This document shows, piece after piece, positions 3,849 through 16,595 of a stretch of 38,113 nt of DNA. Made by a program: the position numbers and the translations under genes. Every line of letters begins with the position of its first letter. The stretch's first letter is position 1. Source of the DNA: a virus; the IMG/VR virus record IMGVR_UViG_3300035187_003230, positions 1 to 38,113 of that record; one strand, 5' to 3'. The notes beneath the pieces are model-generated. The model saw nothing but the letters and a program-made list of their open reading frames with translations, did no database searches and was not told the DNA's origin.

Positions 3849-4069
3849 GGTCCAATCTCCTTTTTGTTTGCATAAACCTTACGAAAAACCGATGCCTTTT
3901 TCTCACACTCGGTTAAATCATCACCCGTGAAATGAATCCGCATTGTTCTTTCGATACCGCCGACCACGAACGATTTATAATCAGCCTGTAGTTTCTTTGC
4001 CTTCTTTTCAAAGGTTGGCAATTCATCTTTGTGAATCCCTGTGTAGTAGTATGATAAAATCATAATCAT
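3830..4069 (-). CDS. Hypothetical protein (79 aa)
   Basis: A 79-residue basic, soluble protein: MIMILSYYYTG, then a lysine-rich helix (FEKKAKKLQADYKSFVV) and RTMRIHFTGDDLTECEKKASVF. The repeated charged-helix and strand pattern suggests a small alpha/beta fold. Its ATG overlaps the upstream stop as ATGA; a second ATG two codons later is also possible. No family is recognised. Confidence 0.62.
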   Translation of the reverse strand: MIMILSYYYTGIHKDELPTFEKKAKKLQADYKSFVVGGIERTMRIHFTGDDLTECEKKASVFRKVYANKKEIGPWSKEL

Positions 4070-4409: not shown

Positions 4410-4718
4410 ATGATCCAACCATTTTCGTACATTGATATGGTTTATTATGAGCGCAATAATTGCGTTGCTGCTTTGGCACAAGTTGCGCGGTCTTTAGGGT
4501 TCAAAGTTGTAGTTACAAAAACCACTATGATTGGCGTTAGGGATGAATGGCAAAATTGCATTTATATAGATCTCCCAACAGGACAAGTAAGCTGGCATTT
4601 CCATGACAGGGAGGATTTTTTGTTCTCAAGTTTTCCAAAAGCTGAGAATGTGGAATATGATGGCCACAGCATAGAGGATAAATATTTAAGATTAAAAGAA
4701 TGGGGAATGACGTTATGA
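4410..4718 (+). CDS. Conserved phage hypothetical protein (102 aa)
   Basis: A 102-residue protein. The central stretch LPTGQVSWHFHDRE followed by a YDGHSIEDKYLRL segment near the C-terminus matches a pattern I recall from many phage hypothetical proteins near replication genes (GQVSWH...DGH..EEKY.RL). No activity is known. The strong AGAGG site lies 7 bases before the ATG. It starts the rightward replication operon, and the next gene overlaps its stop as ATGA. Confidence 0.75.
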   Translation: MIQPFSYIDMVYYERNNCVAALAQVARSLGFKVVVTKTTMIGVRDEWQNCIYIDLPTGQVSWHFHDREDFLFSSFPKAENVEYDGHSIEDKYLRLKEWGMTL

Positions 4719-10068: not shown

Positions 10069-10371
10069 CTATTCAGCCTCCTCTAGCGTTCCGTTTTTTT
10101 GAATAATTTTGACGAAGGCACTTCTGACGTTGGACCACATTATTCCTTGTAGCCATGTGCCGCCCTTCCAAACGCCATCTTCCCAAACGCCATCTTCCCA
10201 AACGCCATCTTCCCAAACGCCAAATCTCCATTGAAGCTCGTCTGCAGTTATGTTGATAATTGCTGAATGAAACGTAGCTGTTTTTAACCATGGGAATTTT
10301 TCCTCAGCATTTTTAGGTGATCCGCCAATAATTCTGTCGTATTTTTGTTTGGTAATAGTTTGGGTGTTCAT
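10069..10371 (-). CDS. Trp-rich pentapeptide-type repeat protein (100 aa)
   Basis: A 100-residue protein with a central repeat: GVWED three times, then GVWKG and GTWLQG (residues 51-76). Each repeat places Trp every fifth residue, as in pentapeptide-like right-handed beta solenoids of the W-x-x-G-x type found in some phage and bacterial proteins. The flanks are non-repetitive. The DNA of the first three units is a perfect 15-bp tandem repeat, so copy number can vary by slippage. AAAGGATAATAACC precedes the ATG. The role is unknown; a beta-solenoid binding scaffold is inferred. Confidence 0.68.
   Translation of the reverse strand: MNTQTITKQKYDRIIGGSPKNAEEKFPWLKTATFHSAIINITADELQWRFGVWEDGVWEDGVWEDGVWKGGTWLQGIMWSNVRSAFVKIIQKNGTLEEAE
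10171..10222. repeat. 15-bp in-frame tandem repeat
   Basis: Three perfect copies of a 15-bp unit (AACGCCATCTTCCCA, 10171-10215) plus a partial fourth. The unit encodes five residues (GVWED) of the Trp-repeat protein. The lack of silent differences between copies indicates recent expansion. Confidence 0.95.
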
Positions 10372-10821: not shown

Positions 10822-11442
10822 TTAGTATCCTTTGCCAGTCCTACGGGTTTTATCGGGAAACAAAGTATTGCTAAAAACGGCACCTTTAAACGATGCTTTT
10901 TTAAACCACTGGGCACCATAAAAGTTGGAATTTGTAAGGTTGCAGTGATTAAAAATAGTTTCATCTAAGTAACTGTCTGAAAGATCGCAATCCGTGAAAT
11001 TTGATCCTGTAAAATCTGCGCCTCCAGCATATACGCCAGAAAGGTTGGCTTTATTAAAATTGCAGTTGGTGAGTTTTGACTTGTGAAAACTAACTCTAAG
11101 TCGATGTCCGCTAAAATCAGAGCCTGAAAAATCGGCAAACGAAAAGTCTGTTTTTTCATTTCCTGAAAAGCCTGATTCCGTAAGGATAATGCCTCTAAAA
11201 TCTCTCCGGCCGTGGTAATAGGCCGTGGCCAATTCGCATCCTGTGAAATAAACCTTTTCTGAAGGATGTTGATCCTTTTGTTTGACAAGGTGTTTGATGA
11301 GGAGTTCCATGGATTTGGGTATAGGGTATTCGCCGGATTCATAGGATCGGATCGTGCGAACGCATTTCCCAACAAGGGCGCATAGTCTTGTTTGACTGAC
11401 GCCCAAGTGTATCCTTGCTTGTTTAAACTGTTCGGGTGTCAT
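10822..11442 (-). CDS. HTH domain fused to pentapeptide repeats (206 aa)
   Basis: A two-domain protein. Residues 1-55 are an XRE-like HTH (MTPEQFKQARIHLGVSQ, RLCALVGKCVRTIRSYESGE) with the usual Gln-Thr-x-x recognition region. Residues 75-195 are pentapeptide repeats of the A/S/T-(D/N)-(L/F)-x-x kind: DFRGIILTES, DFSFADFSGSDFSGH, LTNCNFNKANLSG, ADFTGSNFTDCDLSDS, NHCNLTNSNFYGAQ. Such repeats fold as a right-handed quadrilateral beta helix; in Qnr/MfpA proteins the helix resembles DNA. Here it may give dimerisation or bind a DNA-binding enzyme while the HTH holds it on the phage or host DNA. It may also be the repressor of the palindromic operators. Both roles are inferred. Confidence 0.8.
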   Translation of the reverse strand: MTPEQFKQARIHLGVSQTRLCALVGKCVRTIRSYESGEYPIPKSMELLIKHLVKQKDQHPSEKVYFTGCELATAYYHGRRDFRGIILTESGFSGNEKTDFSFADFSGSDFSGHRLRVSFHKSKLTNCNFNKANLSGVYAGGADFTGSNFTDCDLSDSYLDETIFNHCNLTNSNFYGAQWFKKASFKGAVFSNTLFPDKTRRTGKGY

Positions 11443-12124: not shown

Positions 12125-12153
12125 ACAATACGGCAATACTTGCAGTATGTCAA
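12125..12153 (-). promoter_or_regulatory. Leftward promoter with palindromic operator
   Basis: TTGACA (12148-12153), 17 bases, TATTGT (12125-12130). Between the boxes lies TGCAAGTATTGCC (12144-12132 on the minus strand), matching in 10 of 13 positions the palindrome found at 13650-13662 and 14768-14780. It controls the genes from 12094 to about 10069 or further. Confidence 0.7.
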
Positions 12154-12170
12154 GGAAGAAATTGCATCAT

Positions 12171-12362
12171 TCAAACGGGAAAATATCCCAGTTGGTTTGC
12201 TTCTTTGATGATGCACTGCCCGTAGTATTGGGCGGCTTGTCTGCTAACGAATTGAGAGGATTCTCTTTTTGTGAACAGGATTTTGCCGTTTGATTTGACA
12301 AGGTATCCCAGCACGTAACCGCCGTTGCCTTTGGTGATTTTTAGGATGATTTTGGGGTTCAT
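12171..12362 (-). CDS. Hypothetical protein (63 aa)
   Basis: A 63-residue basic protein of short beta strands and a helix: PKIILKITKGNGGYVLGYLVKS, then FVSRQAAQYYGQCIIKEANQLG. The strand-strand-helix order resembles small DUF1508-like folds, but the match is weak. AAAGGAACCCTTACC precedes the ATG. It ends 18 bases before the promoter at 12125-12153, so the operons abut. Confidence 0.6.
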   Translation of the reverse strand: MNPKIILKITKGNGGYVLGYLVKSNGKILFTKRESSQFVSRQAAQYYGQCIIKEANQLGYFPV

Positions 12363-12908: not shown

Positions 12909-13367
12909 TTATTCTGCATTCTTTTTGCAAGAAAGTTCTTCTTTTTCAGTTGTTTTTTTTTCTGGGGCATAATGAATAGCCACTTGAAACATTGTTTTTG
13001 TGATTGGAAAGTAAATTCTTTGGGAATCTTTAAGACAGTAGTCCGTTTTTAAATAATCGTTATTTTCTAGAGATTTTTCGATCAGTCTCGCTTCTTTAAT
13101 GATTGGCAAGTTTTCGTTACTAAGTCCTAAAGTATATTTTTTCTTAATGTCATTTAAGCGGTCTTGCGCTTTTTCCCGCGCGTCATAATCAATGCCTTGA
13201 TATTCTACGGGGTGAAGTCCTTCGTCTATCAAATGCACAACAAGGTCGGCGCGGGTGTATATTTTGCCGTTTTCGGTGTATAAAATTTTTTGCGAAAGGT
13301 GTTTAGAGGCTTTGCCTGATTGCATGGGAGAAAGTGTTGATAAATAATTGTTTAAAGCTGTGTTCAT
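12909..13367 (-). CDS. Hypothetical protein (152 aa)
   Basis: A 152-residue charged soluble protein. Residues 30-60 (YTENGKIYTRADLVVHLIDEGLHPVEYQG) and a long helical middle (EKAQDRLNDIKKKYTLGL) are followed by a Lys/Glu-rich tail ending SCKKNAE. AAAGGAAACCAAGCC precedes the ATG. It is the second gene after the operator-controlled promoter at 13643-13671. No family is recognised. Confidence 0.65.
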   Translation of the reverse strand: MNTALNNYLSTLSPMQSGKASKHLSQKILYTENGKIYTRADLVVHLIDEGLHPVEYQGIDYDAREKAQDRLNDIKKKYTLGLSNENLPIIKEARLIEKSLENNDYLKTDYCLKDSQRIYFPITKTMFQVAIHYAPEKKTTEKEELSCKKNAE

Positions 13368-13382
13368 GGCTTGGTTTCCTTT

Positions 13383-13586
13383 TTATAGAGATTCAGGGGT
13401 TACAAAAACAAACTGGCCTTTTGCCGTAAAGTTCTCATAGTTGGACAAAGGGGAAAGATAGTATTCGCCAAACAATCCGATATTTCTCGACCAGCGCACT
13501 TCATATAATTTTTTGTTGCTTTTTAAAATCGTTCTGCCTTCCTGATAAACAGAGCGCAGGGTTTCTTGTGTGAATTTTTTTGTCAT
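13383..13586 (-). CDS. Hypothetical protein (67 aa)
   Basis: A 67-residue basic protein of probable beta character (LYEVRWSRNIGLFGEYYLSPLS, KGQFVFVTPESL) after a short helix. AAAGGAACCCTAACC precedes the ATG, and the gene is the first downstream of the promoter/operator 13643-13671. No family is recognised. Confidence 0.62.
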   Translation of the reverse strand: MTKKFTQETLRSVYQEGRTILKSNKKLYEVRWSRNIGLFGEYYLSPLSNYENFTAKGQFVFVTPESL

Positions 13587-13642
13587 GGTTAGGGTTCCTT
13601 TGTGTTGAGTGGTTACGCTTGTTGGTTTGTTTTATTAAAACC

Positions 13643-13671
13643 ATAATAGTGCAATTATTGCAGCCCGTCAA
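13643..13671 (-). promoter_or_regulatory. Strong leftward promoter with palindromic operator
   Basis: TTGACG (13666-13671), 17 bases, TATTAT (13643-13648). The spacer holds the perfect palindrome TGCAATAATTGCA (13650-13662). A repressor bound there would block RNA polymerase. It drives the genes at 13586 and 13367. A further shared stretch, AATTGCATCATT, lies upstream at 13677-13688 and again at 12161-12172. Confidence 0.8.
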
Positions 13672-13755
13672 GGAAAAAATTGCATCATTTGAAAAAAAGA
13701 GAAACAGAAGAGCAACACAAGGAAACAGACGTAAAAAGGTGTAGTTTTTATTTAC

Positions 13756-13784
13756 TTGACAGTGTGATTTTTGTTTGTTACGAA
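13756..13784 (+). promoter_or_regulatory. Rightward promoter of the structured RNA
   Basis: TTGACA (13756-13761), 17 bases, TACGAA (13779-13784). Transcription would start near 13791, on the strand opposite to the surrounding accessory genes. Confidence 0.55.
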
Positions 13785-13790
13785 GCCTCG

Positions 13791-14024
13791 TGCGCGTAAA
13801 CTTAATAGCTCAATACCCTGATTGTTTGATAACCTTTAAGATATTCTTAAAACACATACGCCTAGGGGTCTTTAGGGGAGCGGCAGAGAGGCGTTAGCCT
13901 ATCGGTGAGCATCCCCTATGAAACAAACCCAGCGGTAGCTGGTTCGTAAGGGGAAGTCTGTTCAAAATCTTTGAACGTCTTTTCTTGGGATGATGTGGGG
14001 GGATTCACCATCCCCCCTTTTTTT
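13791..14024 (+). ncRNA. Candidate structured non-coding RNA (~235 nt)
   Basis: A 440-bp gap between leftward genes contains no plausible gene on either strand but a chain of good hairpins on the plus strand: TTTAAGA/TCTTAAA (13835-13851), TAGGGGA/TCCCCTA (13873-13918) enclosing AGGC-GTTA-GCCT, CCAGC-GGTA-GCTGG (13929-13942), GTTCAAA-ATC-TTTGAAC (13960-13976), and an intrinsic terminator (13997-14024). A promoter precedes it. A second TAGGGG at 13863-13868 could compete for CCCCTA, giving two folds. I recognise no known RNA family. It may be a regulatory RNA, a packaging-type RNA or an antisense RNA; the 5' end is inferred. Confidence 0.62.
13997..14024 (+). terminator. Terminator of the structured RNA
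   Basis: GGGGGGAT (13997-14004), loop TCACC, ATCCCCCC (14010-14017), then seven Ts (14018-14024). There is no T run on the minus strand, so it acts on rightward transcription, where the only upstream unit is the RNA candidate. Confidence 0.92.
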
Positions 14025-14032
14025 GGTTGTGA

Positions 14033-14497
14033 TTAAGAATTTTCTAAAAGAATCTTGTTTGTTTCTTGGATTCTTTTTTCAAGAATCTCTATGTCGATAG
14101 GGTTGTTGGCTGTTGCCAGTTTATAGTGCAGAGATGACAAGCCCGCTTTGCAAGCCTCAACCAATGCGGCTATATGTTTTTTGTGCCTTTGTTCAGCTTT
14201 TAGTTTGTTCTTGTGTGCTTTGTTTTCAAAAGCCTTTAAAACTTCAGAATACAAAGGATGGTCGGGGCATACCAATATGCTGTCAGAATCAAAGCAATCA
14301 GTCATCAAATCAGTGTCATTTTTAATCGTGAAAAATTCCCCAACTTCTTTGGAAAAGCGGCTAGTGAGATCTGATTTTTTGGATTGTTTGCAAATTTGTA
14401 TTGATTCATTTTTAACGTCACGAAAATAACAACAGGCTTGGAGTTTCCCGCCGTTGATTTTGATTCCATTGTAAAAGAATTTGATTGTGTTGGTCAT
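14033..14497 (-). CDS. Hypothetical protein (154 aa)
   Basis: A 154-residue protein. The first 60 residues look beta-rich (NTIKFFYNGIKINGGKLQACCYF...), the rest helical and basic (AFENKAHKNKLKAEQRHKKHIAALVEACKAGL) ending with a coiled-coil-like helix (IEILEKRIQETNKILLE). AAAGGAAACCAAGCT precedes the ATG. It is the second gene behind the operator-controlled promoter at 14761-14789. The N-terminal pattern FFYNGIK-x-N-GGKLQ seems familiar from other phages, but I know no function. Confidence 0.65.
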   Translation of the reverse strand: MTNTIKFFYNGIKINGGKLQACCYFRDVKNESIQICKQSKKSDLTSRFSKEVGEFFTIKNDTDLMTDCFDSDSILVCPDHPLYSEVLKAFENKAHKNKLKAEQRHKKHIAALVEACKAGLSSLHYKLATANNPIDIEILEKRIQETNKILLENS

Positions 14498-14517: not shown

Positions 14518-14706
14518 TTACTCTTTTGCTTCCAAAAAGTTAAAACAGGTTTCTTTTTTAGCGTGATTAAAAGATATTTCTCCATTTTTGACGGCAAAAT
14601 ATCTTCTGTGTAAGCGGAAAACAAAATTGCTTTTGTCTTTAAAAACAATCCCGTCTCTCTCTGCTATGGATTTAATTTTTTCATAGTCATATTGTTTTTT
14701 GGTCAT
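14518..14706 (-). CDS. Hypothetical basic protein (62 aa)
   Basis: A 62-residue basic protein: MTKKQYDYEKIKSIAERDGIVF, then short strands (FVFRLHRRYFAVKNGEISF) and a polar end. The ATG at 14706 has AAAGGAAACC upstream and follows promoter/operator 14761-14789; an in-frame ATG at 14772 lies within the promoter. It may be the direct target gene of the repressor, as the first gene of its operon. No family is recognised. Confidence 0.62.
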   Translation of the reverse strand: MTKKQYDYEKIKSIAERDGIVFKDKSNFVFRLHRRYFAVKNGEISFNHAKKETCFNFLEAKE

Positions 14707-14760
14707 GATTTGGTTTCCTTTGTTGAGTTGAACGCTTGTGTTGTTGTTATTGTTAAGATC

Positions 14761-14789
14761 AATATACTGCAATTATTGCAGCCTGTCAA
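14761..14789 (-). promoter_or_regulatory. Strong leftward promoter with palindromic operator
   Basis: TTGACA (14784-14789), 17 bases, TATATT (14761-14766), the best promoter in the window. The spacer carries the palindrome TGCAATAATTGCA (14768-14780), identical to that at 13650-13662; the flanking GGC on the -35 side is also shared. Confidence 0.85.
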
Positions 14790-14837
14790 CAGGAAAATGC
14801 AAAAAAATGAAAAAAAAAATAGGAAAAAAGAAAGGGC

Positions 14838-14866
14838 TTGATTTTATAGGGTTTTGTTGTCATACA
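14838..14866 (+). promoter_or_regulatory. Probable late promoter before the terminase genes
   Basis: TTGATT (14838-14843), 17 bases, CATACA (14861-14866), then TACACAAAAGGGAGG. Both boxes are imperfect, so an activator or another early promoter may be involved. It is the only visible promoter before the 20-kb structural operon. It stands divergent to the strong leftward promoter at 14761-14789. Confidence 0.5.
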
Positions 14867-14886
14867 TACACAAAAGGGAGGATTTT

Positions 14887-15330
14887 ATGGATGATAAAAA
14901 GCCAAAGAAAGCAGGAAGGCCAAAAGTCGATAAAAAGCCTTTGACACCAAAACAGATGAAGCTTGCTAGAAACATAGCCAGCGGAATGCCTCAGGTTGAT
15001 GCTTACCGTGATGCTTACAATACAACAACGGACAATAAAAACACGCAGCGCGTGCGTGCTTATCATGAAGCACGTAAAGATAATGTTGCTGCTATGATAC
15101 AAGAATTGAAAGAAAGAGCCGAGCAAGGCGTTGTTTGGACTCGCCAGATGGCCGCTGAGGCACTGCTAGAGGCAGCCGATATAGCTAGACGCCAAAAGCA
15201 CTCACAGGGCATGACAGGGGCTTTAAAAGAGCTTAACGCAATGTATGGCTATAATGAAGCCACAAAAATCAATATTGGTGGGCAGAAAGGCAACCCTATT
15301 ATCATAGCACCTGATGAAAAGGACCTCTAA
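14887..15330 (+). CDS. terS: Terminase small subunit
   Basis: A 147-residue protein. A basic start (DDKKPKKAGRPKVDKK) is followed by LTPKQMKLARNIASGMPQVDAYRDAY, the Terminase_2-like HTH that recognises phage DNA for packaging, and then by a helical oligomerisation part (AAMIQELKERAEQGVVWTRQMAAEALLEAADIA) and a glycine-containing tail (INIGGQKGNP). It hands DNA to the large subunit encoded next; the stop TAA overlaps the next ATG by one base. The ATG at 14887 with GGGAGG 6 bases upstream was preferred to an ATG at 14854. Confidence 0.9.
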   Translation: MDDKKPKKAGRPKVDKKPLTPKQMKLARNIASGMPQVDAYRDAYNTTTDNKNTQRVRAYHEARKDNVAAMIQELKERAEQGVVWTRQMAAEALLEAADIARRQKHSQGMTGALKELNAMYGYNEATKINIGGQKGNPIIIAPDEKDL

Positions 15331-16595
15331 TGCTTATCAAGTGGACCGATAAGCAAAAGGAAGCCTTGAAGCTACTCAGTGGCGATGCCAAGCACGTCAT
15401 GCTTTATGGTGGCTCAAGATCGGGAAAGACGTACCTCTTAACCCATGTGGTGTTCATCCGTGCTTTAAAGTATGACAAAACGCGCCACGCGATAATCAGA
15501 CAGACACAGACAGCGGCAAGGCGGTCTTTATGGCTTGGCACCATTCAGGATGTTATTGCCAGCAGGTATCCTGATGTTGATTTGAAGATCAACAAAACAG
15601 AAATGACAATCACCTTCCCAAACGGGTCTATGATTGAGATCATGGGTGTGGATGAGGGCGCAAAGGAAAAGATGCTTGGGAATGAATACACCACTATCTA
15701 TTTTAATGAATGCAGCGAGATGATGTTCAGCACTGTGTCTTTCATGTATTCACGATTGAGTCAAAAGAGCGCGGCTAAAAACAAGTTCTTTTACGACCAG
15801 AATCCCCCGCATATCTCGCATTGGTCCTTTCCCATGTTCGTGCAAGGCACTAACTACTACAGCAAGGAAAAGCATGCCAACCCATCCGACTATGTGTCCC
15901 TTGTGTTAAATCCTGCCGATAACGTGCAGAACATATCAAGCGATTATATCCAGCAGCTTATGGAGAACATGAATGAGCAACAAAAACAACGGTTTATCTT
16001 TGGCCAGTTTGCAAGTGATCCAGATGAGAAGACGGTGTTCACCAACTGGACTATCAAGGCCTTTGATACTGACCCTGATGCTGTCTTTCAGTTTGGGTGT
16101 GACTTTGGCTTTAGTGTAGACCCCACGGTATTGATACGCTGTTACCTGAAAGAGCGCACACTATACATAGACCAAGAGCTTGTGCTTAAGCAGTGTGAGA
16201 CAATAGACATGCCTAAGATGTTTCTAAGCATACCGGAAAGCCAGCGGTATATCATTGTGGCTGATTCATCACGTCCTGAGACCATATCGCATTTAAAGCG
16301 GCATGGGTTCCCTAAGGTGATGCCAAGCCTCAAGGGCAAGAATAGCGTGATTGAGGGTATAGAGTTGCTGAAGGGATACAGGATTGTTGTACATCCACGA
16401 TGCGAAGAGACGATAAACGAACTGTCCTTTTATAGCTATGCCACGGATAAAGACAGCGGGAAGGTGTTGCCAGAGCTTGAGAAGAATCAGGCAGATCATT
16501 GTATTGACGCCTTAAGGTATGCGTGCGAAGGATTTAGTAAGGTGGCATCACGTCGGATGCAATATGCAGCCCCTAGTAGGAGGATGATGGTTTAA
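15330..16595 (+). CDS. terL: Terminase large subunit
   Basis: A 421-residue packaging motor ATPase/nuclease. Walker A is GGSRSGKT (27-34); the Walker B strand with catalytic Glu is IYFNECSE (123-130). A coupling-like segment QNPPHISHW follows near 156-164. The C-terminal RNase H-like nuclease shows CDFGFSVDPT (first Asp), IIVADSSRPE (second Asp) and HCIDALRYA (third Asp). Length is usual for the Terminase_6/PBSX-like group. It cuts concatemers and drives DNA through the portal. It overlaps both neighbours by a base. The packaging mode (headful or site-specific) cannot be told from this alone. Confidence 0.95.
   Translation: MLIKWTDKQKEALKLLSGDAKHVMLYGGSRSGKTYLLTHVVFIRALKYDKTRHAIIRQTQTAARRSLWLGTIQDVIASRYPDVDLKINKTEMTITFPNGSMIEIMGVDEGAKEKMLGNEYTTIYFNECSEMMFSTVSFMYSRLSQKSAAKNKFFYDQNPPHISHWSFPMFVQGTNYYSKEKHANPSDYVSLVLNPADNVQNISSDYIQQLMENMNEQQKQRFIFGQFASDPDEKTVFTNWTIKAFDTDPDAVFQFGCDFGFSVDPTVLIRCYLKERTLYIDQELVLKQCETIDMPKMFLSIPESQRYIIVADSSRPETISHLKRHGFPKVMPSLKGKNSVIEGIELLKGYRIVVHPRCEETINELSFYSYATDKDSGKVLPELEKNQADHCIDALRYACEGFSKVASRRMQYAAPSRRMMV

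Follow-up and report, generated by a model that had tools for sequence, protein, structure and literature searches.

A putative structured non-coding RNA carried as an optional cassette before the terminase genes in a clade of aquatic phages

In the window, by which we mean the whole 38,113-nucleotide stretch of viral DNA analysed here (IMG/VR record IMGVR_UViG_3300035187_003230), a structured stretch at 13756-14024 sits between two minus-strand genes (13383-13586 and 14033-14497), with the terminase small subunit gene about 1.1 kb downstream. Is this stretch a genuine RNA and, if so, what might it do for the phage? An earlier note, made from the sequence of the window, had placed it inside the accessory region, opposite in direction to its neighbours and ahead of the terminase genes, and the leftward flanking genes and the rightward RNA agree with this placement. 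The note had also seen no plausible gene in the stretch. Consistent with this, stop codons break all six frames, and no reading frame stays open across the core on either strand in the six homologs described below. A short AUG...UAG frame of 6 codons at 13918-13938 reads MKQTQR in most homologs and MKQILL in L028; it was rejected as evidence for a peptide, its codons changing along with the hairpin. No tRNA or tmRNA gene was found in the window, and the genes around the RNA that were scanned include none with a reverse transcriptase domain, as in retrons or with other RT-associated non-coding RNAs.

Homologs, promoter and 3′ end

IMG/VR was searched with three kinds of query: the terminase, the gene next to the RNA, and DNA words taken from the RNA itself. 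Including the window, which has an identical contig (L002), six distinct RNA sequences were obtained, the others being L041/L039, L036, L020/L019, L007/L008 and L028. All are located upstream of terminase genes in one clade of uncultured aquatic phages, whose TerL proteins are 80-100% identical, with the next relatives at 33%, and whose portal matches podovirus portals. Between the window and L007, the RNA is 89.6% identical over 260 bases as against 77% for the terminase-side coding DNA. Two words of 14-15 bases from the most conserved parts hit no other related sequence among 2.9 million viral contigs, a wider terminase search gave no further RNA members, and blastn against GenBank phages and plasmids gave no match. 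A genome scan with the 14-mer TAGGGGAGCGGCAG, too short for a single scan, produced chance matches only, the best of which (L196) turned out to be unrelated on inspection. A covariance-model search of 6 + 369 + 385 bacterial genomes returned nothing, a result of little weight given that no known positive genome was available.

The covariance-model search against Rfam proposed in the earlier note was carried out and matched no family. With Rfam 15 at the gathering threshold the window gave no match, and at a relaxed threshold the window, L028 and L007 gave chance-level matches only. The statement that the RNA cannot be assigned to a known class thus stands for three homologs. We take it to be a genuine phage RNA family that appears to match no catalogued RNA family and whose kind, phage-encoded structured non-coding RNA, is already known. 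GOLLD and ROOL, for instance, are structured non-coding RNAs of ~660 to >800 nt and of unknown function in phages and prophages (PMC12286853). They share with the present RNA that a structured non-coding RNA is carried by a phage, but they are often neighbours of tRNA islands and are modelled in Rfam, whereas the window RNA is only ~180-235 nt long, has no tRNA gene in the window and no Rfam match.

As to its expression, the plus-strand promoter claimed earlier is well supported. TTGACA, the 17-nt spacer with the TG of an extended -10 and the upstream A/T block are kept in all homologs, while the spacer is free to vary at approximately 8 bases. The -10 box is a weak one, with TACAAA, TAGAAA or TAGCAA in the relatives, and because of its weakness in the window (TACGAA) a simple consensus promoter scan did not list the promoter at 13756. 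The pattern is confined to this RNA among all loci fetched. From the promoter position, the RNA should start near 13791.

The other end is less constant. A strong terminator, likewise claimed earlier, is present in the window, but it is absent in two of the six homologs and lies outside the shared core, since similarity to L007 and L028 is lost beyond 13968-13972. L020 has a further copy after a different leftward gene; the terminator is therefore probably part of a neighbouring gene cassette and travels with such cassettes. Because L007 and L028 do not share this 3′ end, we are unsure of the mature length. A discrete transcript of ~180-235 nt is inferred from the promoter, which all homologs keep, and from the terminator, which four of them have. 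G-rich hairpins directly behind the stop codons of leftward genes are found at 3905-3935, 4538-4565 and 4878-4927 in L020 and at 13997-14024 in the window; their T-run is on the opposite (rightward) strand, and they resemble terminators against rightward transcription.

Fold of the RNA core

The fold energy of the window sequence is only modestly below that of shuffles (z −1.9 to −2.1, compared with −2.5 for L007 and −4.1 for L028), so that the number of hairpins alone carries little weight; it is the comparative evidence that makes the RNA appear real. In the supported fold (Table 1), 97.6% of cells pair over the six sequences. Both partners have changed in five pairs of P2 and P3, a number reached by 1 of 500 shuffles and by none of the slid controls, with the two-sided changes coming mostly from one distant homolog (L028) and thus representing few independent events. 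Compensatory changes in related phages, which the earlier note had suggested looking for, are therefore present. We regard the comparative evidence as solid for the existence of the RNA and moderate for its structure.

Table 1. Position of the promoter, the RNA core and its structural features in the window
Feature	Position	Strand	Remarks
A/T-rich block, UP-element-like	13735-13755	+	abuts the -35 box upstream; strongly conserved in homologs
Promoter	13756-13784	+	TTGACA (perfect -35), 17-nt spacer ending TGT (extended -10), -10 TACGAA
RNA core	13790-13979	+	predicted start ~13791; homology to most distant relatives stops at 13968-13972
P1	13794-13861	+	GCGUA 13794-13798 / UACGC 13857-13861, invariant; closes a variable AU-rich domain, longer in L028
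CUAGGGGUCUU patch	13862-13872	+	conserved, two variable sites; without conserved pairing partner; contains first TAGGGG
P2, main hairpin UAGGGGAGC...GCAUCCCCUA	13873-13918	+	pairing 13873-13892/13897-13918, with apical stem
UAUGAAACAAAC linker	13917-13928	+	nearly invariant; largely unpaired in the supported fold; begins the 6-codon AUG...UAG frame
P3 hairpin	13929-13942	+	CCAGC/GCUGG, stems 13929-13933/13938-13942; CUUGC/GCAAG in L028 (two compensatory pairs)
GUAAGGGGA	13946-13954	+	G-run invariant; rivals 13873-13879 for UCCCC 13912-13916 (alternative fold B)
A/U-rich hairpin GUUCAAAAUCUUUGAAC	13960-13976	+	in the window's nearest relatives; absent from L007 and L028
Strong intrinsic terminator	13997-14024	+	hairpin 13997-14017, then T7; in four of six homologs

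Two-sided changes in P2 affect the pairs 13888-13901, 13889-13900 and 13891-13898, the first of which is UA in L007, GC in L028 and a mismatched GA or UC in the rest. The apical stem of P2 is lengthened in L028 by a long new paired stretch. A G-U pair at 13883-13906, replaced by GC in L007, indicates that the plus strand is the paired strand. P1 never varies, which leaves it compatible with the fold only. Of the at least five ordered hairpins counted originally, those at 13873-13918 and 13929-13942 are thus compensated and the helix 13794-13798/13857-13861 is invariant, while the hairpin at 13960-13976 and the terminator are not found in all relatives. The segment 13924-13944 bears a short resemblance to a conserved stretch of 23S rRNA; this candidate was dropped, as L028 alters the segment by compensatory pairs.

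An optional element before the terminase genes

The genes adjoining the RNA differ among the homologs, and three near-full-length relatives (G010, G011 and G012 with 37.9, 38.0 and 35.0 kb; TerL 83-98% identical) are free of it. In G010 (L014), the empty site is clean: window 13361-13671 continues straight into 14695-15400 across a promoter repeat of ~100 bp, which in the window occurs at 13580-13671 and 14702-14797. The variable neighbours together with the RNA-free relative show what appears to be a cassette of the accessory array before the terminase genes, one that is optional and can be swapped. When we searched for a partner by co-occurrence, no window gene was present in all RNA carriers yet absent from the other genomes; hence the RNA seems to need no identifiable phage protein partner. 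Its absence from relatives and the lack of a gene that tracks it disfavour a packaging RNA, a pac/cos site and an obligate protein partner. The swappable arrays of accessory genes apparently carry mobile RNA units as well. The promoters of leftward accessory genes have the form TTGACA-TGCAATWATTGCA-TATWTT (window 13645-13689, 14763-14807 and 12127-12171); the palindrome between their -35 and -10 boxes resembles a shared operator, and these promoter regions of ~100 bp act as direct repeats where cassettes come and go.

Which function could such an element have? The reading we prefer, although we hold the chances to be evenly balanced, is that of an accessory phage non-coding RNA of ~180-235 nt that acts in trans by binding a host factor. 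A sigma70-type promoter of its own would drive transcription of the RNA, which phages would carry as an optional cassette before the terminase genes. Its fold, consisting of P1 around a variable domain followed by the long P2 hairpin and the small P3 hairpin, would display the nearly invariant patches CUAGGGGUCUU, UAUGAAACAAA and UAAGGGGA, and during infection these patches would bind a host protein or RNA machine in trans, as a decoy or modulator. The action would not proceed through base-pairing with the phage's own messages; at the start sites of phage genes, the duplex energies of possible targets were no better than those of shuffles. This distinguishes the RNA from small regulatory phage RNAs like c4 of P1/P7, OOP of lambda and sar of P22 (PMC12197685), as it has no start-site target beyond shuffles in the phage genome and is not antisense to a conserved gene. 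A bolder proposal, which we consider rather unlikely, is a class of phage RNAs that would capture or reprogram a host machine via invariant G-rich patches, with the competition of two folds timing the action, and that phages would hand on to one another as a cassette for anti-defence or take-over. Phage genomes have few catalogued structured RNAs relative to proteins, and a defined promoter, core, covariation and natural RNA-free relatives provide a ready comparison for the role of an accessory RNA in a phage.

The main rival reading is that transcription of the terminase and structural genes starts at this promoter and that the RNA is their cis-acting leader. Such a leader could resemble put of HK022, an RNA that modifies RNA polymerase so that it passes terminators, or, like the 6S leader of lambda pR′, be terminated and read through by an antiterminator. 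This reading retains a limited plausibility because the RNA is in every case directed at the terminase genes and nearly touches them in L007. All six homologs are on the late-gene strand and point towards the terminase operon from a distance of 0.15-1.1 kb, each as the last structured plus-strand element before the late genes, and could thus have a role in cis. In L007, the gap to the terminase holds only a 25-codon leftward frame and ~150 bp, with neither a strong terminator nor a late promoter like that of the relatives; in the window, the strong terminator after the RNA would suit a terminated leader. Against this, the same late operon exists in relatives without the RNA, leftward genes with their own promoters intervene, and in most genomes, with or without the RNA, a promoter-like block of its own (CTTGATTTTAT...TGTTGTCATACATACAC, window 14838-14886; absent in L007) directly precedes the terminase small subunit gene.

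The lambda pR′ 6S leader is a terminated RNA of roughly 200 nt upstream of late genes. In contrast to lambda, no Q-like gene was identified here, the terminase gene is preceded by a separate promoter-like block, and leftward genes lie between. The put RNA of HK022, an element of ~70 nt made up of two stem-loops, serves early operons in cis (PMC9378689). It resembles the window RNA in being folded and placed behind a phage promoter, but the window RNA exceeds it in length, precedes late genes and is not present in close relatives. With three pairing regions over ~150 nt and a downstream operon that exists without it, the window RNA does not fit a put-type antiterminator RNA, which would be a two-stem element at the start of the operon it serves.

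Competing folds and further alternatives

The window contains TAGGGG at 13863 and 13873 and a single CCCCTA at 13913-13918, and two alternative folds had been postulated in which both TAGGGG copies compete for CCCCTA. This competition is not supported. TAGGGG 13863 pairs with CCCCTA with a probability of 0 in all six homologs, forcing the pairing costs ~7-11 kcal/mol relative to the best fold, and L028 has TTGGGG at this position without compensation. A competing fold does exist, its partner being not TAGGGG 13863 but GUAAGGGGA (13946-13954), a segment able to pair with UCCCCUAUGAA. The alternative helix is favoured in the window core and in L036, whereas P2 is favoured slightly in L041 and L020 and clearly in L007 and L028.

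If P2 (13873-13879/13912-13918) and the helix 13912-13922/13943-13954, which are mutually exclusive, formed a bistable switch, the change of fold itself would be the function. The two folds lie within ~2.6 kcal/mol of each other in four of the six homologs, the competing G-run is invariant, and fewer than 1% of 400 shuffled 3′ segments of the window compete as well. Nevertheless, we consider such a switch improbable. P2 wins by 5-7 kcal/mol in L007 and L028, and no gene or terminator stands out as one that the switch would expose. In the alternative helix no change is compensated and all variation consists of broken pairs, which falls short of a conserved switch.

A type I toxin-antitoxin system, in which the RNA would act as antitoxin, or as antisense RNA, to a convergent gene for a small membrane peptide, is very unlikely. 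It is true that a hydrophobic peptide gene of 25-36 codons runs towards the RNA in L007 and L028 and in L007 ends at the RNA 3′ end. However, the window and three other RNA-bearing homologs are devoid of the peptide, and a related peptide in L022 is part of an operon without the RNA; as the peptide gene accompanies two of six homologs, a constant neighbouring toxin is not found and an antitoxin RNA is disfavoured. The hydrophobic peptides form a family of 25-36 residues (MYEQTLGLVVVILLGFFLSLNPLSR and relatives) encoded in accessory arrays at 5413-5487 of L007, ~697-807 of L028 and 4203-4280 of L022, all on the minus strand.

That the stretch is ordinary intergenic sequence whose hairpins and terminator serve the neighbouring genes would fit the single-sequence fold z of only approximately −2 and a terminator belonging to the neighbouring cassette, but a conservation across six genomes that exceeds that of coding DNA, the conserved promoter and the compensatory changes make this highly improbable and refute it as far as the sequences go. 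A pac/cos site, an origin or another DNA element, or else a phi29-type packaging RNA beside the terminase, can be largely refuted and is hardly credible: like the phi29 packaging RNA, the stretch adjoins the terminase genes, but it is optional in the clade and not found in near-full-length relatives that share the terminase (TerL 83-98% identical), and its compensatory changes indicate an RNA.

Two further observations concern the window upstream of the RNA. A minus-strand gene at 10822-11442 encodes a pentapeptide-repeat protein, the N-terminus of which has a weak helix-turn-helix match. Within the frame 10069-10371, the 15-base unit GCCATCTTCCCAAAC is repeated four times in tandem at 10159-10233.
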